A DNA stretch of 44,160 nt, taken from the NCBI GenBank assembly GCA_944389145.1, contig CALXLH010000017.1, forward strand, positions 1-44,160. Reading direction: 5' to 3'. The position numbers and the translations under genes are program-made. The DNA comes from an uncultured Spirochaetaceae bacterium. GTDB lineage: Bacteria; Spirochaetota; Spirochaetia; Sphaerochaetales; Sphaerochaetaceae. The notes beneath the pieces are model-generated. The model had not been told where the DNA came from. It saw only the letters and a program-made list of their open reading frames with translations, and did no database searches. Each line of letters starts with the position of its first letter. Positions within the stretch are counted from its first letter, which is position 1. Below, one piece after another: positions 24,015-38,055 of this stretch.

Positions 24015-24788
24015 TCAGCCCTTCTCGTAGCCGAGTATCGAGGAAAGCTCTGCCGCAGCTTCCATTATCTTCCCTGTGATCTTGCTCTGGTCGCAATCCT
24101 CGAAGCGGAAGAGCGGCCATGATACGGATATCGCGGCGACGGTCCTTCCGGAATAATCCCTGACAGGGGCTGCGATGCATTTTATGTTCATCTCATGTTC
24201 CTCATCATCGATGGACCAGCCTCGCTCGTGCGTCTTCCTCAGCTCTTCCTTCAGGGCCTCTTCCGTCCGTATCGATTTCGGCGTGAATGGCTTCAGCGGA
24301 TGCCCGCTGATGTAATCATCAAGCGCTTCATCGCTCATTTCGGAGAGGAATATCTTGCCAATGGCGGTACAGTACAGTGGTATCCGCTTTCCTACCTGCG
24401 AATACATCCTGAGAGTGTATATGGACTCCTCCTTCAGCACATAGACAGCGGTATCGCCTTCGAGTATGCCCATATGGACAGTCTCTCCAAGCTCCCTGGC
24501 AAGGTTCTTCGCGAACGGCTTTGCCGTGGTTACCAGGTCTATGTGCGAAAGGGAGCGTGATCCCGTTGAGAACATCTTCAGCGTGAGATGATACAGATCG
24601 CCATCATCACGCATGACATACCCAAGGGAGATAAGGGTAGAGAGGAATCGGAGAAGCGTGGCCTTGGGCAGTCCCGTAGCCTTCGCGAGATTCTCAAGGT
24701 TTATCGACTCAACGCGCGATAGCGCCTCCAGTATGGAGATAGTGCGCTGTACCGCGCTCATCTGCTTCTCGTCATCCTTCTCTTTCAT
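24015..24788 (-). CDS. kdgR: IclR-family regulator, KdgR-like
   Basis: A 257-residue IclR-family protein. The N-terminal winged helix (residues about 13-75) contains LPKATLLRFLSTLISLGYV, and the effector domain has YTLRMYSQVGKRIPLYCTAIGK and RGWSIDDEEHEMNIKCIAAPV. From memory these stretches and LYHLTLKMFSTGSRSL align closely with enterobacterial KdgR, the 2-keto-3-deoxygluconate-responsive repressor of pectin catabolism. It is the last gene of the transporter-uxaB-uxaA-uxaC operon, starting 4 nt after uxaC with GAGGG 8 nt upstream. A near-consensus KdgR operator lies between the aldolase and kdgK genes. The KDG effector is inferred by homology. Confidence 0.88.
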   Translation of the reverse strand: MKEKDDEKQMSAVQRTISILEALSRVESINLENLAKATGLPKATLLRFLSTLISLGYVMRDDGDLYHLTLKMFSTGSRSLSHIDLVTTAKPFAKNLARELGETVHMGILEGDTAVYVLKEESIYTLRMYSQVGKRIPLYCTAIGKIFLSEMSDEALDDYISGHPLKPFTPKSIRTEEALKEELRKTHERGWSIDDEEHEMNIKCIAAPVRDYSGRTVAAISVSWPLFRFEDCDQSKITGKIMEAAAELSSILGYEKG

Positions 24789-24792
24789 CAGA

Positions 24793-26193
24793 TCAGCCCT
24801 CGAAGTATCTCTGCGCGTTGTTGAAGGAGATATTCCTGACTATCTCTCCAAGCTGATCCATATCTGCAGGGAACTCACCGTTCTCTACCCAGCCTCCGAT
24901 GACGTTGCAGAGTATCCTCCTGAAGTATTCGTGGCGCGAGTAGGAGAGGAAAGAGCGGCTGTCCGTGAGCATGCCGACGAAGAGCGGAAGCGCTCCGACG
25001 TTGGCAAGGACCTTGATCTGCTCCTCCATGCCATCCCTGTGGTCGCAGAACCACCATGCGGAACCGAGCTGCATCTTGCCTCTGATTCCTCCCTGGTAGC
25101 AGCCCATGAGGGTTGCGAGAGAGTAATAGTCCTTCGGGTTGAGCGAGTAGAAGATCGTCTTAGGCACCTCATCGGTCTCTGAGAGTGAGCCGAAGAATGC
25201 GGAGATGTTGGCTGCAAGCTCCACATCGTGGGATGCGTCGTAGCCTGTATCTGGTCCAAGCAGGCGGTACATCGTCCTGTTATTGTCCCTGATCGATGCG
25301 AAGTGGCACTGGAAGACGACGTTGTTCTTATGATATGCGCGGGCGAGGGCTGAGAGCACGAATGTCCTGTAGGCATCCGCCTCATCTGCCGTTACCGCAT
25401 CTCCTGCCATCCTCTTCTCGAATGCGGCGTTGACAGCCTTCTCATCCCAGAAGGTATGCGGGCAGGTAATGAGCGCGTGGTCAGAGGCCTTGCAACCCAT
25501 CTCGACGAAGAATTGGAGTCTCTTCAGAAGGGCATCGATGACGTCAGAGACGCTCTTTATCTCGACTCCTGCAGCCTTTCCGAGCTTGGCGATATACTCC
25601 GCGAAGTCAGGCTTCTCGATGTTGAGCGCCTTGTCCGGACGATAGGAAGGGATGACCTTTGCCGGGCACTTTCCCTCGTCCTTGATGATCTTGTGGTATG
25701 CAAGGTCATCCGCAGGATCGTCTGTGGTGCCTACCGCGTACACCTTGAATTTCTTCATGATGCCGAATACTGAAAGCTCAGGATTGCTCTTGAACTGCTC
25801 ATTGGCGTTGTCATAGATCTTCCTGGCATTCTTGCGGCAGAGGATATCATTGATACCGAAGTATCTCTGCAGCTCAAGGTGCGTCCAGTGGTAGAGCGGG
25901 TTTCCGATGAGGTTCTCCATCGTCTCAGCCCATGCGAGGAACTTATCATAGGGATCGGCATCGCCTGTGATGAGCTTCTCATCGAAGCCGCATGCCCTCA
26001 TCATCCTCCACTTATAGTGGTCGCCGCCGAGCCATGCATCGGTAATCGTCGTGAATCTCTTGTCTGTCGCGATCTGCTCTGGGATGAGATGGCAGTGATA
26101 GTCGAAGATCGGCATATCAGCAGCATGCTCATGATAGAGCGTCCTAGCGGTTCCTGTCTCCAGGAGGAAGTCCTTGTCCATAAATTCTTTCAT
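24793..26193 (-). CDS. uxaC: Glucuronate/galacturonate isomerase
   Basis: A 466-residue uronate isomerase of the amidohydrolase-like barrel. The N terminus MKEFMDKDFLLETG, FDYHCHLIPEQIA (metal His pair), GGDHYKWRMMRACG and GNPLYHWTHLELQRYFGI follow E. coli UxaC closely, and HDVELA, SRHEYFRRILC complete it. It converts D-galacturonate to D-tagaturonate (or glucuronate to fructuronate), the first cytoplasmic step of the pathway. It overlaps the uxaA stop by 4 nt, indicating coupled translation, and is followed by kdgR. Confidence 0.97.
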   Translation of the reverse strand: MKEFMDKDFLLETGTARTLYHEHAADMPIFDYHCHLIPEQIATDKRFTTITDAWLGGDHYKWRMMRACGFDEKLITGDADPYDKFLAWAETMENLIGNPLYHWTHLELQRYFGINDILCRKNARKIYDNANEQFKSNPELSVFGIMKKFKVYAVGTTDDPADDLAYHKIIKDEGKCPAKVIPSYRPDKALNIEKPDFAEYIAKLGKAAGVEIKSVSDVIDALLKRLQFFVEMGCKASDHALITCPHTFWDEKAVNAAFEKRMAGDAVTADEADAYRTFVLSALARAYHKNNVVFQCHFASIRDNNRTMYRLLGPDTGYDASHDVELAANISAFFGSLSETDEVPKTIFYSLNPKDYYSLATLMGCYQGGIRGKMQLGSAWWFCDHRDGMEEQIKVLANVGALPLFVGMLTDSRSFLSYSRHEYFRRILCNVIGGWVENGEFPADMDQLGEIVRNISFNNAQRYFEG

Positions 26194-27704
26194 AGCACTA
26201 CACCATCCTTAAATATCGAAATCTCGGAGTATCCGTTGATCTCATTCTTCGTATGCTTCTCACCGTTGGCAATCGCTCCGATCAGCTTGATGAGCTCGTT
26301 CGTTACCTTCTCCGGATCCTCCCTGAGCATCGGTGAGGCATCGAAGTCGATCCAGTCAGCCTTATGCTCCGCGAGGGCATGGTTCGTCGCGATCTTCACC
26401 GTTGGGACGGGCGCGCCAAGCGGGGTGCCACGACCTGTCGTGAAGAGGATCATATGCGCACCGGCCGCGGTCATGTCGGTTGTTGATACGATATCATTGC
26501 CGGGACCGGAGAGCAGGGTGAGCCCTGGGGTGGTAACTCTTTCGCCATAGCCGAGAACCGAGGTGACAGGAGCCCTTCCTCCCTTCTGCACGCATCCGAG
26601 GCTCTTGTCCTCAAGCGTCGAGATTCCGCCAGCCTTGTTGCCGGGCGATGGATTCTCGTATACGACCTGGCCGTGGGACGTGAAGTAATCCTTGAAGTCC
26701 TGCACCATCGCGACCGTCTTCTCGTATATCTCCTCGCTGACGGCCCTGTTCATCAGCATCTGCTCCGCGCCGAACATCTCCGGAACCTCTGTGAGGATTC
26801 CTGTTCCTCCCATTGCCGTAAGATCGTTGCAGAAGCGTCCGACAAGCGGATTCGCGGTTATGCCGGAAAGCCCATCCGAGCCTCCGCACTTGAAGCCTAC
26901 GACAAGCTTCGACATCGGCTGCGGCTCCCTCCTGTCTCCCTTCATGACCTCTGCGATCTGGAGCATCAGGCGCCTTGCATCACCGATCTCGTCCTCTGAT
27001 TCCTGCGTGATGAGGAACTTCACCCTTGATTCGTCTACGGGGCCGAGAAGCTCCTTGAAGGAGTCCATCGTGTTGTTCTCGCATCCGAGTCCGATGACCA
27101 GCACGCCTCCGGCATTCGGGTGATGGACGAGGCCTGCAAGTATCTTCCTCGTGTTCTCATGGTCGCCGCCGAGCTGTGAGCAGCCGAATGGATGCGTCCA
27201 CGCATGTACCCCATCCTCCAGGCCGAGCGTCTCATTGCCCCATGCTTCGAGCTTCATGGCGATGCGGTTGACGCATCCGACCGTGGGAACGATCCAGAGC
27301 GAGTTGCGGATACCGATGCGTCCATCCTTCCTGGCATAGACGTTGATGGCGGGAACATGGCCCTTCCACCTGAGCTTGTCCACCTCGGCTTCCCTCATGC
27401 ACTCCTCTGCCACGCTTCTGTCATAGCTGTAGGCCGCGCTTTCGGAAAGCAGCGTCGAGATATTGAAGGCATGCACATGCTGGCCCTTCCCGATATCTTC
27501 CTTCGCAGCGCCGATAGGGTAGCCATATTTGATTACCTTCTCTCCCTTCCTGATATCCTGCAGGGCGATCTTATGCCCTGCCGGGATGTCTGAGAAGGCC
27601 GTGAAGGTATCCCCGGCGACTGTCACGACCTCTCCCTTCATCACGGGAGAGATCGCTACTGCGACATTGTCGCGATCCGTTATCTTGATGAGCTTCTGAT
27701 CCAT
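26190..27704 (-). CDS. uxaA: Altronate dehydratase
   Basis: A 504-residue UxaA/GarD-family dehydratase that turns D-altronate into 2-keto-3-deoxygluconate. The N-terminal SAF domain (residues about 1-90) includes KYGYPIGAAKEDIGKGQHVHAFN. The large C-terminal domain shows NRIAMKLE, the Cys-containing HPFGCSQLGGDHENT and VIGLGCENN (likely iron site), GFKCGGSDGLSGITANPLVG and TTGRGTPLGAPVPTVKI. Length is as expected. It sits 6 nt after uxaB and overlaps uxaC. Confidence 0.97.
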   Translation of the reverse strand: MDQKLIKITDRDNVAVAISPVMKGEVVTVAGDTFTAFSDIPAGHKIALQDIRKGEKVIKYGYPIGAAKEDIGKGQHVHAFNISTLLSESAAYSYDRSVAEECMREAEVDKLRWKGHVPAINVYARKDGRIGIRNSLWIVPTVGCVNRIAMKLEAWGNETLGLEDGVHAWTHPFGCSQLGGDHENTRKILAGLVHHPNAGGVLVIGLGCENNTMDSFKELLGPVDESRVKFLITQESEDEIGDARRLMLQIAEVMKGDRREPQPMSKLVVGFKCGGSDGLSGITANPLVGRFCNDLTAMGGTGILTEVPEMFGAEQMLMNRAVSEEIYEKTVAMVQDFKDYFTSHGQVVYENPSPGNKAGGISTLEDKSLGCVQKGGRAPVTSVLGYGERVTTPGLTLLSGPGNDIVSTTDMTAAGAHMILFTTGRGTPLGAPVPTVKIATNHALAEHKADWIDFDASPMLREDPEKVTNELIKLIGAIANGEKHTKNEINGYSEISIFKDGVVL

Positions 27705-27710
27705 ACTACC

Positions 27711-29189
27711 TCAGAGGCTTTCCACGGCAGCCTTCATGCCCTTGGTCCAGATTGTCTCAAGGTGTCCTGCGATCGTCTTCTCGAGTCCCTCGATCCTTGT
27801 GAGATCCTCTCCCCACCATGACGCATCTGAGAGTACCGCGTGCGCGATCTTCCCAGCCTTGTCTGCCGCATCCTTGTACTCTGCCTTGTACAGAGAAGCG
27901 AACTTCTCGAGTACTTCCGGGCTGTCGTTGATCAGATATTTCTCGCCGTTGCGGCTACCGACGAGCGCTGGTCCCTCATATTCCGTGCCGTTGTAGAATG
28001 AGATTAGGGCTGCAAGCGAGAACGGAAGCACCACCGGGAGCTTTCCTTCCTTCCTCACATAACCGATGAGGGATGGCAGGTCGCGCGTCTTGAACTTGGA
28101 GACGCTGTTGAGCGAGATGGAGAGGCAGAGATGGACGATGTACGGGTTTGCGAACCTGTTGAGTACGTCTCCCGCATATTCTTCCAGCTGCTTCTTATCC
28201 CCATCCATCGATGGGATGATCTCCTCAAAGAGGCCACGCTTCATCATCGGGAAGATAACTGGACTCTTGATGCATTCCTCTACGGTATTGAGTCCCATCT
28301 GGTATGCTGCGAGCACGGACATGGTATGGGCGCCGTTGAGGATGCGCACCTTGCGAGTGCGATAGAAGGACATGTCGTCGGTCCAGATGACATTCACGCC
28401 GGCCTTCTCGGTCGGAAGCTCATCCTCATGGGTCTTTCCGTGGCACTCTATGACCCAGAGAAGGAAAAGCTCCGCCTTGTCTAGGAGGTTATCCTTGTAG
28501 CCAAGCTCCTCACAGAGCTTATCTGCCTCATTCCTGGGGTATCCCGGGACGATCCTGTCTACGAGGCTGTTGCAGAAGTCGCATGCATTGTCGAGCCAGC
28601 TCTTGAATCCATCCTCAAGTCCCCATTCGTCGGCATATCTCTTGACGATTGCCTTGAGGTTGTCTCCGTTCTTGTCTATAAGCTCGCATGGGATGGCGAT
28701 GATTCCCTTATCCTCGGCGCCGTTGAAGTGCCTGTATCTCCTGTAAAGGAATGCACAGACCTTTCCCGGGTATGAGATCTGCGGCTTGTCATCAAGCTTA
28801 TCGCCCTCATGATACGCGATGCCGGCCTCTGTAGTGTTGGAGATGATGAACCTGAGGTCGGGATTCTCCGCCTGGGCCATGTACTTCTCATATTCCGTGA
28901 ATGGATTGATGCATCCTTCGACGCTGGTGATGGTCCTGAACTCCTGGACCGGCTTGCCGTCCACGATTCCGCTGAGGACTGTCGTGTAGAGGCCGTCCTG
29001 GTCATTGATCATCTCCCCCATGCCGTTCTTGAGCGGCTGGATCATCATCACGTTGCCATTGAAGTCTCCCTTCTCGTTGAGAAGGTCTACGATCCAATCC
29101 ACGAATGCCCTGAGGAAGTTTCCCTCTCCGAACTGGAGGATCTTCACAGGTCTCTGAGGCTTCTTGACGGTTTCCTTGATGCTTTTCAT
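27711..29189 (-). CDS. uxaB: Tagaturonate reductase (altronate oxidoreductase)
   Basis: A 492-residue NAD-dependent mannitol dehydrogenase-family enzyme that reduces D-tagaturonate to D-altronate. The Rossmann region holds KILQFGEGNFLRAFVDWIVD, with ISNTTEAGI later, and the catalytic domain has the family stretch RVRILNGAHTMSVLAA (normally KxxxLNxxHS/T). Length fits UxaB (about 480). It overlaps the stop of the upstream BASS transporter by 4 nt, placing it second in the operon. Confidence 0.96.
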   Translation of the reverse strand: MKSIKETVKKPQRPVKILQFGEGNFLRAFVDWIVDLLNEKGDFNGNVMMIQPLKNGMGEMINDQDGLYTTVLSGIVDGKPVQEFRTITSVEGCINPFTEYEKYMAQAENPDLRFIISNTTEAGIAYHEGDKLDDKPQISYPGKVCAFLYRRYRHFNGAEDKGIIAIPCELIDKNGDNLKAIVKRYADEWGLEDGFKSWLDNACDFCNSLVDRIVPGYPRNEADKLCEELGYKDNLLDKAELFLLWVIECHGKTHEDELPTEKAGVNVIWTDDMSFYRTRKVRILNGAHTMSVLAAYQMGLNTVEECIKSPVIFPMMKRGLFEEIIPSMDGDKKQLEEYAGDVLNRFANPYIVHLCLSISLNSVSKFKTRDLPSLIGYVRKEGKLPVVLPFSLAALISFYNGTEYEGPALVGSRNGEKYLINDSPEVLEKFASLYKAEYKDAADKAGKIAHAVLSDASWWGEDLTRIEGLEKTIAGHLETIWTKGMKAAVESL

Positions 29190-30184
29190 CGCTTGTCTCC
29201 TTTGACGTTATCTATCTTTTCCGGCTTTCTTCCAAAGAGGATATGGGCCGAGAGCGCGCATGTCGATTGCTGCAGCACTATACCGAATATGATAGGCAGT
29301 ACTGCCCCCGGAGGGAAGAAGTCTATCGCTATTACCATCGCGGCTGAGATGTTCTTCATGCTGGACGCGAAGGTCATTGAGATCAGTTCCTTGTGCTCCA
29401 GCCGTCCTATGCGTCCGACCGCGTAGGCTATGAAATAGCCGGAGAATGCGAATGCGAACGATGTCAAGAACTGAGGCACGCATGCCAGGGTGAGGGATTC
29501 CATGAGCTCCTCTGCCACCTGGCTTGAGTTGATGATTATCACCAGCAGCAGGGCTACCTTCGTAAATGGCTTGAGGCAGGGTACCGCGTGCCTTGTGCAT
29601 GTTCCCTTCGTAGCCGCGTTGATGGCTATCCCGATCACGGATGGGATCACGACCATCCATAGAAGGGAGAGCATCATGCCTGACACATCCATAGATATCT
29701 CGGAAGAGGAGAGGAGGCGTACCGTATAGGGCGTCATTATAGGCGCAAGGAGCGTGCCTATCACGAGCATGGCAAGGCTGAGCGCCGCGTTTCCGTCGTA
29801 TATCCCGGACCATACGCTTCCTACCACCGCGGTCGGTATCGCATAGAGCAGGATGAATCCGGCTACGGTATCCGGGCTTGAGGGGAACAGGAGATGCGCG
29901 ACTGTCGTCACTATCAGCGGGAAGACGATATAGGCGCAGAGCATGAAGAGGAATATCGGCTTCGGCTTCCGTATGACGCGGCCGAAATCGAGGACTGAGA
30001 CTCCCATGCCGTTGACGAGCGTCAGGAAGGCGAAGAGTGGGGTCACGATTGGCTTGAGAGGCTTGAATAGGAATGCAAGCAGGATGCCGAGTATTACGCC
30101 AGTAGGCGTAATTATTGGCATTGAGCGTTCAAGGAAGCCGTTTGTCCTCTTCAATCCTTGTTCGATGGCCGAAAAACGGAACAT
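29186..30184 (-). CDS. BASS-family (bile acid:sodium symporter-like) transporter
   Basis: A 332-residue membrane protein with nine to ten predicted helices. ILGILLAFLFKPLKPIV near the start, YAIPTAVVGSVWSGIYDGNAALS, the crossover-helix stretch MTFASSMKNISAAMVIA and PIIFGIVLQQ correspond to the sodium/bile acid symporter fold. As the first gene of the uxaB-uxaA-uxaC-kdgR operon, translationally coupled to uxaB, it is a candidate hexuronate or keto-deoxygluconate carrier; this is inference from position. The ATG has no ribosome site; a TTGACA-16 bp-TAAACT promoter on this strand ends about 5 nt ahead, so a leaderless mRNA is possible. Confidence 0.85.
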   Translation of the reverse strand: MFRFSAIEQGLKRTNGFLERSMPIITPTGVILGILLAFLFKPLKPIVTPLFAFLTLVNGMGVSVLDFGRVIRKPKPIFLFMLCAYIVFPLIVTTVAHLLFPSSPDTVAGFILLYAIPTAVVGSVWSGIYDGNAALSLAMLVIGTLLAPIMTPYTVRLLSSSEISMDVSGMMLSLLWMVVIPSVIGIAINAATKGTCTRHAVPCLKPFTKVALLLVIIINSSQVAEELMESLTLACVPQFLTSFAFAFSGYFIAYAVGRIGRLEHKELISMTFASSMKNISAAMVIAIDFFPPGAVLPIIFGIVLQQSTCALSAHILFGRKPEKIDNVKGDKR

Positions 30185-30193
30185 GGTTTCAGT
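30175..30193. promoter_or_regulatory. Degenerate KdgR-like site over the transporter start codon
   Basis: AACGGAACATGGTTTCAGT fits the KdgR consensus at 15 of 19 positions and covers the ATG of the BASS transporter. It is weaker than the kdgK site and could be chance, but it stands at the head of the operon that contains kdgR itself. Confidence 0.35.
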
Positions 30194-30238: not shown

Positions 30239-30277
30239 ACGTATCGGTGTTGTACAATAACGACATCAGGAGGGATG

Positions 30278-33200
30278 ATGGGCAGGCGCATAGGATTCTT
30301 GCTGGCGAATGTTTATCAGGGATCGAGCACATCCATGTGGAAGGCCATGGCTGGTGCTGCCTCAGGCGATGATGGCAGTGCCCTCTTCGTTTTCCCCGGA
30401 GGCCGCCTGCGCTATGTCCCTGGCAATGAGTATCTCAGGAACGGGATCTATGATCTTGCCAACTCCTCATCTCTAGATGGCGCGGTTATCTGGACATCAG
30501 CCCTCTCCGGTTCCGTCGGCGCCGATGAGGCTGCCATGTTCGCCAGGGAGAAGGCCCGGGAGATAAGCGTAGTCTCCCTTGGAATGCTGGTCGACGGATG
30601 TCCCAGCGTCGACTTCGATGCCTATAGCGGCATGCTTGCCGAGGTCGGTCATATGATATCGGTGCATGGTGACCGGAAGATCGCCTTCATCAGGGGCCCT
30701 GAGAGCCATAGGAGCGCTGAGGACCGGCTCAGGGCGTATAGGGATGCCCTTCAGAAGGCGGGGATAGCATATGATGAGCGTCTTGTCTCGTCCCCGTATC
30801 CATGGGCTGAGGGAGCTGCCGCTGCGAAGGAGCTGATCGATATGCGCGGCCTCGTGCCTGGCCGTGACTTCACCGCGCTTGTTGCCGCTTCTGACATGCT
30901 CCTCCTTTCCGCCTTCCGCTATCTTGAGGCGTCTGGCATCAGGATTCCCCGCATGCTGCATGTCGCAGGATTCAATGATAACGACGAGAACACGCTGATG
31001 TCCGTTGAGCCTACTACGGTGAGGCTCCCGATAACAAGGCTGGCCGTCTCCTCCTACGGCCTGATCTCTTCGCTATGCAGTGGCGGGAGCTCCCCGGATA
31101 TCCTTCTCTCGACCGATCTCATCGTGCGTCACTCATGCGGCTGCACCGGGCTCTTCGGAACCGAGGGAAGGACATTCTCCGTCGATGATGATGAGCTGTG
31201 GAGGATCCTCTGCCTTCATCTTGAGAATCCTGCCGCAGAAGCTGCGCTCAGGAGGATATTCTCCTATCTTCTCGGAGACGGCGATGATTCACTGCTCTTT
31301 TCCTCCTGTGAGGATTTCATAGCCTCTGGCGGCGATCCTGCTGCCCTGTTCGAGACCGTGCCTGTCCTTTCGGGCCAGATCTCGCAGGAGAGGAAGGACC
31401 GGCTCTTCCTGAGGTTGATCTTCGAAGAGCGGCGCGCCAGGGCAAAGGAACGGCAGCGCATGCGGATGCTCACCACATCCCTCGACCTCTTCAAGACCCG
31501 CCTGCTCGCGGCAAAGGCCTATGATGAGCTGCCCGCCATAATGCAGTCCACATTCGGCAACCTCGGCATCTCCAAGTGCTTCGTGATGCTCTATGCGGAT
31601 TTCTCTGAGACATTGTTCGCAGGAGGCTTCTCCGATGAGGTGATCTATGATGGAGGTGAGCATTTTTCCCGCTCTCTCATAGCTCCGCCGTCTCTCTCCG
31701 CTGAGGTAGAGCGCGGAATCTTCGTGATAGAGCCGCTTTTCTATGATAGCCAGGAGCTTGGATATATCGTGGTGGGTACCAGATGGTGCGAGGGCTATGT
31801 CCTGGAGGATATCAGGACATCGCTCTCTTCCGCGCTCAAGGGCATAAGCCTCTTCGAAGAGGCAAGAGAGGCTAAGGAAAGGGCCGAAGAGGGGGAGCGG
31901 AACGCGGAGGAGTTCTATGCCAGGCTTTCCGAAGGCGTCATGCAGCCGCTGTCGCAGATGCGCTCGTCGCTTATGCGGAAGGGGAGGCTTCCCCGCACAG
32001 GGCTTCTCCGTTCCATACTCGGTGCGGAGCATCTGCTTGAGCTTGCGCTTGCAGAGCGTGGCGAGCTGTCGGTAACCCTTTCCCTGCAGCCTCTCTCTCC
32101 GCTGGTTTCCTCGCTTGTAAGCGATGGATTGTCCGTAGAGGCTCCGTCGCGGCTTCCATTGCTGGAAATCGACCGTGACAGGTTATCTGAGGCACTGCTG
32201 ATCATGTGTTCATCCCCGTCCGGAATCAGCGGACGGATCTCCATATCACTTTCGGAGGATGGGCTTCTGTTTTCGATAAATGATGGACCTGCGGATCTTG
32301 AGGATACTGCGCTGAAGCTTGTCGAGCAGATAGTCGTGATGCATTCGGGCGTGATGGACAGAAGCGGAGAGACGGCATCCATCACCATTCCTTATCCACG
32401 TCTTGCAGAGGGAAGCGTCAAGGGAGAGGGAATCATCTTCCTCGAGGGCGGGAATGGCCTGATGCCCGATGGCCTTGATGCAAGAGGCGTCGGCTGTGAT
32501 GATCTCTCTTCTGTCTCGCCCCGTGCCGTGGCCCTCCTTGATGATAACCGGCAGGGGGCTGCGGCGCTGCTTGCCTCCCTTTCCCTCCGCCCGGTCTCAG
32601 TGATCCTCTTCTCCGAGAGGGAGGAATTCTCTCTCCGGACCGCGCTTGAGTCGATCGCTTCCTCGAATGAGCGCCTGCTCCTGCTGCTTGGGCCTTCGGC
32701 ATCGCTCCCTCCATCGCTTGAGGATATAGGACGGACCATCGTTGCCGATAGCCTTGATGGCGCTCTCTCCCTCAAGGAGAGCGTGAGCCTCATCGTCCTC
32801 TCCTCCGTCGATGATGAGGCGGTTGCGAGGATCCGCTCATCGCAGCGCCTGTCTTCCATCCCTGTGCTGATTGTCCGTGAGCGCTTCTCAAGGAAGGATA
32901 TCGACAGGATCGCGCCTGTCCCGAACGTAATCATCGCCAATCCATCGATACTCGAATCAAAGGATTTCCTGTCACGCCTTGTATCGATAGCCGATGGCAG
33001 CAGCATCCTTCCACCTTTTACGGGATTTATCGTGAAACGGGCTATCGTTTACCTGAATGAACATGCCACGCAGCCTATATCGCGCTGGCAGCTCGCGGAG
33101 GCGGTCAGCATAAGCGAGGACTATCTTGCTCGGATATTCCGCAAGGAGCTTGGTCTCTCTCCGTGGGATTATCTCAACCGCTATAGGATACAGCTCTCAG

Positions 33201-33337
33201 TATCCCTCCTGCTGGGTTCCGGCAGGACGCTATCAGAGATAGCGAGGGACTCCGGCTTCCAGGATCAGGCGTACTTCTGCAGGGTCTTCAAGAAGATAAA
33301 GGGGTTCTCTCCGAGCCATGTGCGTCAGCGCAGATGA
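30278..33337 (+). CDS. Large hybrid regulator: LacI-type sensor, kinase-like middle, AraC DNA-binding end
   Basis: About 1019 residues with no membrane segment. Residues 1-280 resemble the sugar-binding half of LacI/GalR regulators without the helix-turn-helix (GFLLANVYQGSS, HGDRKIAFIRGP, RAYRDALQKAGI, VAGFNDND). Residues about 400-540 look GAF-like, flanked by charged coiled coils (AREAKERAEEGERNAEE). Residues about 560-720 resemble a decayed histidine kinase, with ISINDGP-like N box remnants but no clear phospho-His. About 770-900 resembles a receiver lacking its acidic pocket. The last 100 residues are an AraC domain (SRWQLAEAVSISEDYLARIF, LSEIARDSGFQDQAYFCRVF). AGGAGG favours ATG 30278 over 30275. 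It precedes an ABC importer and probably controls it on binding a cytoplasmic sugar. Confidence 0.85.
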   Translation: MGRRIGFLLANVYQGSSTSMWKAMAGAASGDDGSALFVFPGGRLRYVPGNEYLRNGIYDLANSSSLDGAVIWTSALSGSVGADEAAMFAREKAREISVVSLGMLVDGCPSVDFDAYSGMLAEVGHMISVHGDRKIAFIRGPESHRSAEDRLRAYRDALQKAGIAYDERLVSSPYPWAEGAAAAKELIDMRGLVPGRDFTALVAASDMLLLSAFRYLEASGIRIPRMLHVAGFNDNDENTLMSVEPTTVRLPITRLAVSSYGLISSLCSGGSSPDILLSTDLIVRHSCGCTGLFGTEGRTFSVDDDELWRILCLHLENPAAEAALRRIFSYLLGDGDDSLLFSSCEDFIASGGDPAALFETVPVLSGQISQERKDRLFLRLIFEERRARAKERQRMRMLTTSLDLFKTRLLAAKAYDELPAIMQSTFGNLGISKCFVMLYADFSETLFAGGFSDEVIYDGGEHFSRSLIAPPSLSAEVERGIFVIEPLFYDSQELGYIVVGTRWCEGYVLEDIRTSLSSALKGISLFEEAREAKERAEEGERNAEEFYARLSEGVMQPLSQMRSSLMRKGRLPRTGLLRSILGAEHLLELALAERGELSVTLSLQPLSPLVSSLVSDGLSVEAPSRLPLLEIDRDRLSEALLIMCSSPSGISGRISISLSEDGLLFSINDGPADLEDTALKLVEQIVVMHSGVMDRSGETASITIPYPRLAEGSVKGEGIIFLEGGNGLMPDGLDARGVGCDDLSSVSPRAVALLDDNRQGAAALLASLSLRPVSVILFSEREEFSLRTALESIASSNERLLLLLGPSASLPPSLEDIGRTIVADSLDGALSLKESVSLIVLSSVDDEAVARIRSSQRLSSIPVLIVRERFSRKDIDRIAPVPNVIIANPSILESKDFLSRLVSIADGSSILPPFTGFIVKRAIVYLNEHATQPISRWQLAEAVSISEDYLARIFRKELGLSPWDYLNRYRIQLSVSLLLGSGRTLSEIARDSGFQDQAYFCRVFKKIKGFSPSHVRQRR

Positions 33338-33413
33338 GCATGTCGGAATTGTACAATGAGTGGATTGGATTATCCGTAAGATGCCTCTTAGACTTGACTT
33401 ACGAGGTAGACTT

Positions 33414-34367
33414 ATGGACATTGGAAAATCCGGAAGCAAGGCTCCGTCGACGGCTCTTTCCAAGAGCAGGCTGCGGAGGGAGATTGCCAGGCATCGCTCT
33501 GTGTATCTCCTGGCTCTCATTCCGCTCATCTATTACATAATATTCAAGTATGTTCCAATCTGGAATGCCCAGATAGCCTTCAAGGACTTCATGGCAAGGC
33601 GCGGGGTGCTTGGCTCTGAATGGATAGGGCTGGAGAACTTCAGGACTTTCATCAACAGCTTCTACTTCTGGTCCCTTATCCGCAATACAGTGATGTATTC
33701 GGTCGGTAAGATACTTATCTCGCTGCCGCTCTCGATCATACTCGCCATATGCGTATATGAATGCACGCGGCCGGCACTGCGCAAGGTCGTCCAGACGCTG
33801 GCGTACCTGCCTCACTTCCTGTCGTGGGTAATCATGTATGGTATCCTCCTGGCGCTCCTGGCTCCCGGGGATGGCGTAGTGAATGACCTGATCAAGCTCT
33901 TCGGCGGACAGCCTCTTGATTTCCTTTCCAACGTGAAGACATTCCCATGGGTTGTCCTGTTCTCCGATGCCTGGAAGGAGATGGGATGGTCTGCGATCAT
34001 CTTCATAGCCGCTCTCATGGGCATAGACGTGTCGCTCTTCGAGGCGGCTATGGTGGAAGGGGCCAACAGCTGGCAGCGCGTCAGGTACATAACGATTCCT
34101 GCGATCCTTCCCGTCATAGTGACGGTACTCATCCTCAAGCTCGGAACGATCCTCGATGCCGGATTCAACCAGATCTTCATGCTCTACTCGCCCCAGGTCT
34201 ATTCCGTCGGAGATATCATCGATACCTGGGTATACAGGCAGGGCCTTCTGGAATTCGAGTTCGGGCTTGCTACGGCGGTGGGACTCTTCAAGGGAGTCTT
34301 CGGCATGGTCCTCGTGCTTCTTGCGAACTGGCTGTCCAGGAAGCTCACCGAGAGCTCGCTATTCTAA
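33414..34367 (+). CDS. ABC transporter permease (LplB/YtePlike, first subunit)
   Basis: About 317 residues with six predicted helices. SVYLLALIPLIYYIIFKYVPIWNAQIAFKDF and IGLENFRTFI are characteristic of the LplB/YteP group that imports complex oligosaccharides. The EAA loop is FEAAMVEGANSWQRVRYITIPAI. GAGG 7 nt before ATG 33414 supports this start; the frame is open to 33360 without a better site. The gene lies 76 nt after the hybrid regulator and is followed 11 nt later by the second permease. Relatives in Bacillus serve rhamnogalacturonan uptake, which fits the GH105 gene downstream. Confidence 0.93.
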   Translation: MDIGKSGSKAPSTALSKSRLRREIARHRSVYLLALIPLIYYIIFKYVPIWNAQIAFKDFMARRGVLGSEWIGLENFRTFINSFYFWSLIRNTVMYSVGKILISLPLSIILAICVYECTRPALRKVVQTLAYLPHFLSWVIMYGILLALLAPGDGVVNDLIKLFGGQPLDFLSNVKTFPWVVLFSDAWKEMGWSAIIFIAALMGIDVSLFEAAMVEGANSWQRVRYITIPAILPVIVTVLILKLGTILDAGFNQIFMLYSPQVYSVGDIIDTWVYRQGLLEFEFGLATAVGLFKGVFGMVLVLLANWLSRKLTESSLF

Positions 34368-34378
34368 GGAGGTTTCAG

Positions 34379-35296
34379 ATGGCAGATAAGAAGCAGAGGC
34401 ATCTGAAGCCGCAGATGCAGAACAGCAAGGTAAGGCTGACTGCAGCCGATCATACCTTCAATGTGATCGTAAACATATTCATGGTCTTCATCCTGATCGT
34501 CATACTCATCCCGGTCTGGTCCACGATCACCCTCTCGTTCAGGCCCAATGATTATCTGGGGTCTAACCTGGAAGGCATGTTCCTCCCTCCTTGGGAATGG
34601 TCCACGGACGCCTATACGGCGCTTCTGGGCAATGATGGATTCCTTGACGCGTTCCTCAACAGCTTCAAGATCCTTGTCGGAGGAGTGTTCTGCGCCTTGG
34701 TCCTGACGATTCCGATGGCGTATGTCCTCTCGGTGCAGAGCCTTCCCGGACGCAAGATCATAAACATGATCGTGATCATCCCATATGTCTTCAACGTGGG
34801 CATGATTCCGACGTATCTCCTTGTCCGCGACGTGGGCCTGATGAACCACCTGCCTGCAGTCTTCCTTCCCGGTGCGATATCCACATACAACTGCATAATC
34901 ATGAGGCAGTTCTTCGTCGGCATCCCCAATGAGCTGAAGGAATCAGCAAGGATCGACGGATGTACGGAGCTGCAGGTGCTTTTCAGGATCATCCTGCCTC
35001 TGTCAAAGGCCATCGTCATGACGATCGGGCTATACTATGGAGTCTCGTTCTGGAATGACTTCTTCCATGCGATGCTCTATCTGAACGATAACCAGCCGCT
35101 GCCGATCCTCCTCAGGAACATACTCCTTGCCTCCGGCATGAATGAGTATGTCGAGGTCAATGCATTCGGCAATGCTCCGGTGAGCGCTATCAAGGCGGCA
35201 TCGGTATTCATGAGCGCTATCCCGATGATCGTGGCATATCCGTTCATACAGAAATACTTTACTAAGGGAACTCTCCTCGGATCAGTCAAGGGCTGA
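34379..35296 (+). CDS. ABC transporter permease (YtcP/LplC-like, second subunit)
   Basis: A 305-residue inner membrane protein of the YtcP/LplC group: PVWSTITLSFRPNDYLGS after the first helix, IIPYVFNVGMIPTYLLVRDVGLMN, EAA loop NELKESARIDGCTELQVLFRIILP and a C terminus FIQKYFTKGTLLGSVKG. AAGGAGG lies 6 nt before the ATG at 34379. It is coupled in one operon with the preceding permease and the binding protein that starts 26 nt after its stop. Confidence 0.95.
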   Translation: MADKKQRHLKPQMQNSKVRLTAADHTFNVIVNIFMVFILIVILIPVWSTITLSFRPNDYLGSNLEGMFLPPWEWSTDAYTALLGNDGFLDAFLNSFKILVGGVFCALVLTIPMAYVLSVQSLPGRKIINMIVIIPYVFNVGMIPTYLLVRDVGLMNHLPAVFLPGAISTYNCIIMRQFFVGIPNELKESARIDGCTELQVLFRIILPLSKAIVMTIGLYYGVSFWNDFFHAMLYLNDNQPLPILLRNILLASGMNEYVEVNAFGNAPVSAIKAASVFMSAIPMIVAYPFIQKYFTKGTLLGSVKG

Positions 35297-35322
35297 TGCG
35301 GAGAACATAAAAGGAGGAAAGA

Positions 35323-36906
35323 ATGAGAAAGCTTAGAAACATCCTCATGATCACCATCGCGGTGCTTATGGTCATGCCTGCATTCGCTGGCGGAAGCAGC
35401 GAGAAGGCCTCAGCTGCGGCTGGCACCCCTGATGATCCTGTGACGATAGACCTTTGGTTCGGCGCTGCCGTGACCGAGGCTGGCATGATCCCAGATGACT
35501 GGGTAGGCTATGATATCATCCGCGAGAAGCTGGGCATCGATCTTAATCTGACGATGCTTCCTTCCAACGAGTCCGATCAGGACGTTAGGATCCAGGCCGC
35601 GGGTGCCGCTGACAGCCTTCCTGATCTCTTCATGGTCCGCCGTCCGGTTCTCACGAACCTCGTTGAGCAGGGACTGGTGGCGGAGGTCAGCGACTGCTTC
35701 GAGAAGATGCCTGTCCGCACGGCACAGCAGTATGATGCCAACTCCATCGCGCACACCACTATCGATGGCGAGGTCTTCGGCTTCGCTTCTCCTGGAGCTA
35801 TCGCTAAGAACGAAGGCCTCCTGATAAGGAAGGACTGGCTCGACAACCTCGGCCTTGAGGTTCCGACCACCATCGATGAGCTCCTTGAGGTCGCAAGGGC
35901 GTTCACATTCAACGATCCCGACGGGAATGGAAGGAACGATACCTATGGATACGGCGCGTTCGTCGAGACCGATGCCACGCTCAAGGGCTATCCTGGCTCA
36001 AGGCTCTGGCCGATCATGGGAGCATACGGAGTCGAGGGTCTCTGGAGCTTTGACAGCGAGACTGCCGGACTCTCGATCTACAAGCCTGAGTTCTATGACT
36101 TCATGGTGACGCTTAAGACGATGTGCGATGAGGGCATCATCGATCCGAACTGGCTCTCATACAAGAAGGATGACTTCCGCGCTGCATGGAAGCAGGGCAG
36201 GTTCGGTATCATGTATGAGCAGAACGCCGCTTATGCCGCGACTGCCAACTATGCTCCGTTCGACGCTAACTTCCCTGATGGCGAATGGATCGTCATTGAC
36301 GCTGTCTCAGGTCCTGAGGGACATGCTGCGATAGGTGCATACGATATGAACTATCGTATCTATGCCGTAAGCCAGAATGCTGCGGATGCAGGCAAGCTCG
36401 ATAAGATCTGCGAGCTTCTTGAATGGATGAGCAGCGATGAGGGATATTACCTCTGCGGCTGGGGACAGGAAGGCGTGAACTATGTCCTGGATGAGAACGG
36501 CATACCTGTTGCCGGAGATCTTGGGGATAATGCATTCACAGGTCCTAAGGGACAGGTCTATACGCAGCTGAGGAACATGGTCTTCTATAACGGGGACGTT
36601 GAGCTTGCTTCCCGCTATCCGACCTATGTGACCGAGGTTTCCGGAAAGACGATGTCTGCCCTTACGACGCTCCGTGAGATGCAGGCGAAGAAGTGGACGA
36701 GCGCTATCGGATCGGGAACGATGCCGACCCCGAATGCCGATGTCCAGAGATACTACGACCAGAGCCTTGCAGAGTTCCTTACCGGAGCAAGGGCGCTTAC
36801 TCCTGAGAACTGGCAGGCCTTCCTCGATCAGTTCAACGCCATCGGCGGAGCTGCCTGGAATGCTGAGGGACTTGAGAAGATGGAGGCCGATGGCCTTATC
36901 CGCTGA
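35323..36906 (+). CDS. Extracellular solute-binding protein (LplA/YtcQ-like)
   Basis: A 527-residue binding protein of the large type that pairs with LplB/YtcP permeases. The signal peptide ends PAFAGGSSEKASA, cleaved after A-F-A with no lipobox Cys. DPDGNGRNDTYGYG (near residues 204-217) is an EF-hand-like calcium loop seen in oligosaccharide-binding proteins of this class, for example alginate-binding AlgQ. AAAGGAGG precedes the ATG by 6-7 nt. The following GH105 gene makes an unsaturated rhamnogalacturonan or galacturonan oligomer the likely ligand, an inference from context. Confidence 0.94.
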   Translation: MRKLRNILMITIAVLMVMPAFAGGSSEKASAAAGTPDDPVTIDLWFGAAVTEAGMIPDDWVGYDIIREKLGIDLNLTMLPSNESDQDVRIQAAGAADSLPDLFMVRRPVLTNLVEQGLVAEVSDCFEKMPVRTAQQYDANSIAHTTIDGEVFGFASPGAIAKNEGLLIRKDWLDNLGLEVPTTIDELLEVARAFTFNDPDGNGRNDTYGYGAFVETDATLKGYPGSRLWPIMGAYGVEGLWSFDSETAGLSIYKPEFYDFMVTLKTMCDEGIIDPNWLSYKKDDFRAAWKQGRFGIMYEQNAAYAATANYAPFDANFPDGEWIVIDAVSGPEGHAAIGAYDMNYRIYAVSQNAADAGKLDKICELLEWMSSDEGYYLCGWGQEGVNYVLDENGIPVAGDLGDNAFTGPKGQVYTQLRNMVFYNGDVELASRYPTYVTEVSGKTMSALTTLREMQAKKWTSAIGSGTMPTPNADVQRYYDQSLAEFLTGARALTPENWQAFLDQFNAIGGAAWNAEGLEKMEADGLIR

Positions 36907-36957: not shown

Positions 36958-38055
36958 ATGAACGAAATGCCTCTCTCGATGAAGATCGTGAAAAGCGTCG
37001 AGAGAAGATACAGGCCGGGTATGATGAAATGGCACTATGAGCATGGCCTTGTGCTCTATGCCTCGCTCTCTGCTGCCCGGCTCCATGGCGATGATGCGGT
37101 CTATCCATGGGTATACTCGATGTATGATCCGATGATAGCCCCTGATGGTACGATCGCGACATATCGCAAGGGGGAGTATAACCTTGACCAGATAAATGCC
37201 GGGAGGACGCTCTTCGAGCTGTATGACAGGAGCGGTGAGGAGCGTTTCATGCGTGCCGCAGATCTCCTTCGCTCTCAGCTTGAGACGCATCCGAGATGCA
37301 GGTGCGGAGTCTACTGGCATAAGGAGATCTATCCCTGGCAGATCTGGCTTGATGGCCTCTATATGGAAGGACCATTCAATGCCGAGTATGCCATGCGCCA
37401 TAGGGATGACAAGGAGGCCGATGATGTGGTGCGGCAGCTTATCACGACATATGAGACGATGCGCTGCGGCCGCACGGGCCTTCTGTACCATTGCTACGAT
37501 GAGTCTCGCGGAATGAAGTGGTCGGATGATGAGACGGGGCTTTCCCCTCATTTCTGGTCACGCTCGATCGGATGGTATCTGATGGCCGCTATCGATATCC
37601 TGGACTATCTTCCCGCAGGTCATGATGCCCGTGGAGATATCATCAGGATAATAAGGGATCTGTCCTCTGCCATCGCAGCCTTCCAGGATGAGAGCGGCAT
37701 GTGGTATCAGGTGACCGATGAGGGGGGAAGGGTAGGCAACTACCTTGAGACATCAGGCACCTCGATGTTCGCATACTCATTCCTGAAGGGCGTACGCCTT
37801 GGCTATCTCGATGATAGCTACACGGCCCCTGCCATGAAGGCGATCGAAGGTACGAAGGAGAGATATCTCACAGAAGATGATGACGGGGAGCTTCATCTTG
37901 GCGGCATATGCTCAGTCGCAGGACTTGGAGGAAACCCTTATCGAGACGGCTCCTTCAGATACTATATAAGCGAGAAGGTCGTTCAGGACGACTTCAAGGG
38001 CGTAGGCCCGTTCATCCTTGCCTGCACCGAGGCGGAACAGCGTTCCGGCAGCTAA
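36958..38055 (+). CDS. GH105 unsaturated rhamnogalacturonyl/galacturonyl hydrolase
   Basis: A 365-residue alpha/alpha-barrel enzyme of glycoside hydrolase family 105 (YteR/YesR type) that removes the terminal unsaturated uronate left by pectate or rhamnogalacturonan lyases. WLDGLYM carries the catalytic Asp (D132); YNLDQINAGRTLFELY, PHFWSRSIGWYLMAAID and LETSGTSMFAYSFLKG are typical of the family. It lacks a signal peptide, so it cleaves imported oligomers. GGAGGT stands 9 nt before the ATG. The product would need KduI and KduD, which are not in this window. Confidence 0.95.
   Translation: MNEMPLSMKIVKSVERRYRPGMMKWHYEHGLVLYASLSAARLHGDDAVYPWVYSMYDPMIAPDGTIATYRKGEYNLDQINAGRTLFELYDRSGEERFMRAADLLRSQLETHPRCRCGVYWHKEIYPWQIWLDGLYMEGPFNAEYAMRHRDDKEADDVVRQLITTYETMRCGRTGLLYHCYDESRGMKWSDDETGLSPHFWSRSIGWYLMAAIDILDYLPAGHDARGDIIRIIRDLSSAIAAFQDESGMWYQVTDEGGRVGNYLETSGTSMFAYSFLKGVRLGYLDDSYTAPAMKAIEGTKERYLTEDDDGELHLGGICSVAGLGGNPYRDGSFRYYISEKVVQDDFKGVGPFILACTEAEQRSGS

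Follow-up and report, generated by a model that had tools for sequence, protein, structure and literature searches.

E. coli XylR is a soluble regulator with an N-terminal LacI-type domain that lacks the LacI HTH and is fused directly to a C-terminal AraC domain. DivL and RetS are pseudo-histidine kinases that retain the HisKA-HATPase fold and act on other kinases, and DivL is without the normal His. In the hybrid two-component systems (HTCS) of Bacteroides, a sensor, HisKA, HATPase_c, a receiver and an AraC domain lie in one membrane protein that is encoded near polysaccharide-use genes. One of these, BT4236, has a Gln at the phospho-His site and has been proposed to act independently of phosphorylation (PMC11253607), and the share of HisKA domains without the His is only 0.9% (PMC12632262). 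Finally, atypical response regulators, or pseudo-receivers, have the receiver fold and a DNA-binding output without the phosphorylation residues, and how they switch has been termed a mystery (PMC12632262).

Here we describe a regulator encoded in a 44,160-nucleotide stretch of an uncultured Spirochaetaceae bacterium (the window; contig CALXLH010000017.1) that has something in common with each of these systems. The window protein has the domain series of the HTCS in one chain near polysaccharide-use genes. However, it shows no transmembrane stretch, its sensor is a cytoplasmic LacI-type domain followed by a GAF/PAS-like domain, and throughout its family the phospho-His has been lost along with both the ATP site and the receiver pocket. 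It shares with XylR the soluble form, the HTH-less LacI-type domain and the C-terminal AraC domain (in which it matches the XylR structure, 4fe4), whereas the direct junction of XylR is replaced by about 620 residues of kinase/receiver relic. The HisKA-HATPase fold is common to the window protein, DivL and RetS, and DivL is among the best structural matches; unlike these two, the window protein also contains a dead receiver and a DNA-binding domain, and lacks an ATP lid. Compared with the pseudo-receivers, it has a covalently joined ligand sensor, which is an obvious candidate for the switch. The protein may thus resemble XylR in its working and a hybrid two-component system in its construction. 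A literature search of open-licence papers returned no description of this spirochaete regulator family.

A soluble regulator with a LacI-type sensor and an AraC domain

The regulator gene has two candidate ATGs (30275 and 30278), the second of which is better spaced from the AGGAGG at 30268 (Table 1). Full-length, colinear homologues were detected in 106 of 139 same-family genomes (E<=1e-30). A homologue is also known from a relative in culture, Sphaerochaeta halotolerans (L088). Searched alone, the window protein has Pfam matches at both ends only, and its kinase and receiver regions have none. A sequence-only reading of this DNA had proposed a LacI-type sugar sensor without its own DNA-binding domain, then GAF-like, kinase-like and receiver-like regions, and a terminal AraC domain. 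Both ends are as proposed. The sensor matches PF13377 (E 3e-19) and its model adopts a PurR-like fold (Z 26.7 over 271 residues; CelR-cellobiose, Z 26.1). No LacI HTH is present upstream of it, since the open frame extends merely 24 residues further. The AraC domain is recognised through HTH_18.

The AlphaFold models have a mean pLDDT of 88.7 for the whole chain and 89.1 for the middle region, which was folded separately because the whole-chain fold search was dominated by LacI-type structures. Residues 412-505 match the phytochrome photosensory module (Z 11.5) and DosP (Z 11.8) in the fold search, so that GAF/PAS-like is a fair label for the region that had been called GAF-like. The top 19-residue hydrophobicity is just 1.74, located in the receiver-like region, and therefore no transmembrane segment is apparent. 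Between the CA and REC relics, the model tentatively points to a probable first, incomplete receiver-like unit. A comparable incomplete unit appears to lie at about residues 812-950 of L160, a homologue with intact catalytic motifs, and would already have been in the intact relatives; the layout recalls the two-receiver ShkA.

Table 1. Features of the regulator gene and its surroundings in the window
Feature	Position	Strand	Basis or remark
Divergent uronate operon: IclR regulator, uxaC, uxaA, uxaB-type reductase, SBF-family transporter	24015..30184	-	Pfam
Regulator gene, 1019 aa + stop	30278..33337	+	stop ends at 33337; alternative start 30275
LacI/PurR-type ligand-binding domain without HTH, residues 1-290	30278..31147	+	PF13377, PurR-like fold
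Helical linker, residues 300-411, with terminal long helix 370-411	31175..31510	+	AlphaFold model
GAF/PAS-like domain, residues 412-505	31511..31792	+	model and fold matches
DHp (HisKA) relic, residues 506-597, two long helices	31793..32068	+	profile, fold, HisKA matched in 13/67 members
H-box relic EEFYARLSEGVMQPL, residues 544-558, within DHp			
Glu552 codon, at the phospho-accepting His position of intact homologues	31931..31933	+	family alignment column
CA (HATPase_c) relic, residues 598-706	32069..32395	+	profile; CA-domain fold matches, Z about 12-13
Probable first, incomplete receiver-like alpha/beta unit, residues 715-797	32420..32668	+	secondary structure and L160 sequence; tentative
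Receiver (REC) relic, residues 798-906	32669..32995	+	fold match 2qxy; phospho-Asp position is Ser842
AraC-type DNA-binding domain, residues 913-1019	33014..33334	+	HTH_18, E 2e-21 (Pfam)
ABC importer, downstream of the regulator, probably co-transcribed	33360..36906	+	Pfam
Importer permease	33360-34367	+	Pfam
Importer permease	about 34394-35296	+	Pfam
Importer solute-binding protein	35323-36906	+	Pfam
GH88/GH105-type unsaturated uronyl hydrolase	36958..38055	+	PF07470, E 4e-92

Kinase and receiver ancestry of the middle region

We built a profile from residues 291-918 of 67 homologues and searched it against the sequences of solved structures. Clear matches are the kinases and pseudo-kinases HK853, DivL, GacS and RetS (E 6e-6 to 7e-11; HK853, 1.6e-10), the best among the solved histidine kinases lying at E 7e-11 to 2e-10, and 13 of the 67 members match HisKA individually in Pfam. 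The model of the middle region matches HK853 over 161 residues of DHp-CA (Z 14.2) and DivL with Z 13.0 and an rmsd of 2.7, and the model of residues 798-906 matches the response regulator 2qxy (Z 11.9, rmsd 2.4, 106 residues). The sequence profile gives weak support for the receiver part (E 0.04 and above), and the receiver argument is therefore carried by the fold and by the intact homologues.

In the window protein, the DHp-CA and then the receiver folds precede the AraC domain, in the order of the hybrid kinases. Like pseudo-histidine kinases, the protein shows HisKA-HATPase homology but has lost one kinase function or more, and like pseudo-receivers it has a receiver fold without phosphotransfer residues. 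These profile and fold matches indicate that the middle of the window protein is kinase and receiver by ancestry, in agreement with what had been called kinase-like and receiver-like from the letters of the sequence.

Loss of the phosphorylation residues

Catalytic positions were read from an alignment of the 67 family members together with the intact homologues. The phospho-His column holds Glu in 28 members, Ser in 15, Asn in 10, Asp in four, His in three, Gly in three, Ala in two, and Val and Thr in one each; the window protein has Glu552. The catalytic Asn of the N-box is found in none of the 67, the F-box/ATP lid is a gap in 66 of them, and the G1 and G2 glycines are lost; all four elements are missing from the CA relic of the window protein. 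In the receiver, the first acidic residue is replaced by Gly (49 of 67) or Asn (11 of 67), the acidic pair is gone, the conserved Thr and Lys are substituted across the family, and the beta3-alpha3 loop is five alignment columns shorter. With the gap ignored, the phospho-Asp position is Glu in 18 of the 67, Thr, Asp or Asn in nine each, Ser in seven and other residues in the remainder; in the window protein it is Ser842.

The window protein lacks three features that define functional hybrid two-component systems, namely the phospho-His, the boxes and lid of the ATP site, and the receiver residues (acidic pair, phospho-Asp, Thr and Lys), and is therefore not a functional member of that class. 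The missing residues rule out an ordinary active hybrid kinase: the window protein has no intact His, ATP lid or phospho-Asp, and the same holds for 118 of the 121 full-length homologues counted as distinct, judged by patterns that require all motifs. Across these 121 the motifs come as a complete set or not at all, save for isolated regex matches in four. The sequence-only reading had suggested such a loss for the window protein; it turns out to hold for the whole 67-member family. Asp occurs at the phospho-Asp position in nine of the 67 members and His in the H-box in three, and none of these has an ATP site or the other receiver residues. The three with the His (L079, L082 and L085, with LEHEL or LEHKL) are from termite-gut treponemes; this His may be either a chance return or a relic.

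Intact homologues and origin

A phylum-wide profile search and two family searches turned up the three homologues with complete catalytic motif patterns, L159 and L160 (f4) and L194 (f8, another family). All three are full-length and have the domain order of the window protein, with every domain recognised by Pfam. They carry SHELR[T/A]P, NLL.NA, D.G.GI, [I/V]FEPF and G.GLGL in the kinase, and DDD, VLDL..P, the Thr and the Lys in the receiver. The L159 and L160 genes immediately precede a permease, permease and solute-binding protein set, and L194 is beside a GH88/GH105 gene. These three proteins are thus like the window protein in domain order and neighbouring genes, but with all catalytic motifs present, and are apparently working versions at matching transporter and/or uronyl-hydrolase genes.

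Phylogenies were based on the sensor and GAF-like region, with other LacI-sensor proteins as the outgroup; a careful tree left out L161 (a likely domain swap) and L179 (a very long branch). The degenerate proteins (n=69) form a single clade (support 99/93, 98% of bootstraps), and both L159/L160 and L194 branch between it and the outgroup, the branching order of L194 versus L159/L160 having weak support (84/55). The simplest reading of this topology is that the loss happened once, at the root of the degenerate clade. The hybrid two-component ancestry first suggested from the window alone is supported by the three homologues that carry all motifs, share the domain order and neighbouring genes, and fall outside the degenerate clade; the window protein would descend from an intact cytoplasmic hybrid two-component form.

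Conservation, selection and later derivatives

The AraC domain is the most conserved part of the chain, with an invariant FQDQAYFCRVF, and conservation is lowest in CA and REC. The core of DHp is kept without the His: E537 is invariant, and A536, F546, L554 and P557 are conserved at 90% or above, which fits a role as a dimer rod. For DHp, CA and REC, every pair in which dN/dS could be computed gives a value under about 0.5, and most values are <0.2 (eight pairs, in several of which dS is saturated or undefined, making those ratios rough). The low ratios indicate that the dead domains are maintained by purifying selection, under a constraint looser than that on the sensor and the AraC domain.

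Two derivatives, L214 (711 residues) and L216 (777 residues), have no CA region and keep the sensor, the GAF-like region, the receiver relic and the AraC domain, and L216 also retains the DHp helix. They are placed in separate branches within the degenerate clade. A third example, which has diverged further, is L179. Judging from these sequences, the dead kinase is mostly deleted in at least two derivatives; since L214 and L216 do without CA, its catalysis is dispensable.

In L161 (L161:2478-6203, +), the LacI/GAF sensor of the family sits on an intact HisKA-HATPase-receiver-receiver-Hpt chain. The protein groups within a termite-gut treponeme clade of dead-kinase proteins, and a domain swap has likely given it back a live kinase. 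Some treponemes encode sensorless proteins of 232-249 aa in which the receiver relic and an AraC domain make up the whole chain (L176:4332-5078, L177:3818-4531, L178:3978-4691, L181:4019-4714 and L182:3741-4436), away from pectin genes; an HD-type hydrolase-like gene adjoins those of L176 and L177. The LacI-type sensor and GAF-like region also occur with other outputs (L164, L166, L170, L171, L172, L173, L174, L175, L180 and L188), which include live histidine kinases, HisKA_3 kinases, a SpoIIE phosphatase chain and chemotaxis (MCP) domains. The soluble LacI-sensor superfamily thus appears to be broad in spirochaetes.

Alternative roles of the dead domains

Selection on the dead domains and the deletions of CA bear on what these domains do. 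The main alternative is that they take a second input (a nucleotide, c-di-GMP, a partner kinase or a phosphoprotein) that is integrated with the sugar, so that the protein would be more than a switch for one ligand; we regard this as possible but rather unlikely. Purifying selection acts on all of the dead domains, degenerate CA and REC folds are able to bind ligands, and the ligand-binding pseudo-receivers of ShkA and CikA are precedents (PMC12632262). Full-length ShkA (DHp-CA-REC) is matched with Z 12.3, but with an rmsd of 17, because the domain arrangement differs. However, at least two lineages have deleted CA and kept the rest, which argues that CA is not essential, and CA and REC are the least conserved parts of the chain.

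That phosphate control persists, with acetyl phosphate or another kinase acting in trans as the donor to the receiver, could be proposed from the Asp found at the aligned position in nine members. It is very improbable given Ser842 in the window protein, the missing acidic pair, Thr and Lys, and the shortened beta3-alpha3 loop. The end domains are identical in kind to those of XylR, and the protein could in principle be a XylR-type LacI-AraC regulator that acquired unrelated middle domains and never was a kinase. We give this little credence: in DHp-CA-REC homology and order the protein agrees with intact hybrid kinases that share its end domains and its neighbouring genes, and in the tree rooted on LacI-sensor proteins the intact forms diverge before the degenerate clade. 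Least credible is that the middle is the decaying sequence of a pseudogene or of a recent inactivation without function, as its low identity to the window protein (19-54%) might suggest; this is contradicted by dead-domain dN/dS values well under 1, by open, full-length, colinear frames in 118 distinct members over several families of the phylum, and by the confident predicted fold.

A pectin and uronate locus

The regulator and the first importer permease are 22 bases apart. Given the enzyme families encoded around it (Table 1), we take the pathway of the locus to be the uptake and breakdown of pectin-derived hexuronides. Near family members, in 80 loci of which many end early at contig ends, we detected the two permeases in 56 and 54 loci, respectively, the solute-binding protein in 48, uxaB in 40, the GH88/GH105 hydrolase in 35, uxaC in 32 and uxaA in 28. 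The full-length colinear homology and the conserved pectin/uronate neighbours together mark an orthologue set, and the locus (uxaBAC, ABC transporter and GH88/GH105 hydrolase) is conserved widely in Spirochaetota. For gut and rumen spirochaetes, this protein is likely a master regulator of pectin use.

No AraC-type direct repeat common to the family was found in the upstream regions of 68 loci. A palindrome, GGAACATGGTTTC, at about 30177-30192 overlaps the start of the SBF transporter gene and adjoins a TTGACA-like -35 of the uxa promoter, and a variant (GAAACATNNTTCC or GTTTC) is present in about ten related loci. We rejected it as the operator of the regulator itself, as it is better suited to the neighbouring IclR protein; it looks like the operator of this adjoining, KdgR-like regulator.

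Proposed mechanism

Domain order, predicted folds, catalytic loss, intact ancestry, the conserved locus and purifying selection were all computed. With these in hand, we consider it very likely that the window protein is a hexuronide-gated, phosphorylation-free regulator of pectin uptake, with a cytoplasmic hybrid two-component system as its ancestor. Its LacI-type domain would bind a cytoplasmic sugar, most likely an (unsaturated) galacturonide from the neighbouring importer or the neighbouring hydrolase. Closure of the sensor would act mechanically on the receiver-like and AraC domains, by way of first the helical linker, then the GAF/PAS-like domain and then the DHp helix pair. In a presumed dimer, the paired AraC domains would be repositioned and their contact with a putative operator altered, with no ATP binding, autophosphorylation or phosphotransfer. 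The regulator would then activate the importer operon, activation being the presumed sign of control.

On the scale of the family, it is probable that a hybrid phosphorelay was inactivated whole, once and early in a large spirochaete lineage, and was retained as a rod that couples the sensor allosterically to the AraC domain. The dead kinase would later have been pruned in some descendants and one live kinase regained by swap, and live and dead orthologues would control the same importer genes.

Significance

Pseudo-kinases and pseudo-receivers have so far been known singly, whereas here a sensor, a dead kinase, a dead receiver and an output are joined in one soluble chain, and the dead form is accompanied by live orthologues at the same genes and by derivatives with the kinase deleted. 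The direction of change is opposite to the usual story, in which one-component regulators give rise to two-component systems. The family makes one question directly testable: to what extent two-component signalling works through conformation, the phosphate step being one that can be taken out. If the proposed history is true, the live and dead orthologues on shared importer genes would be a natural before/after pair.
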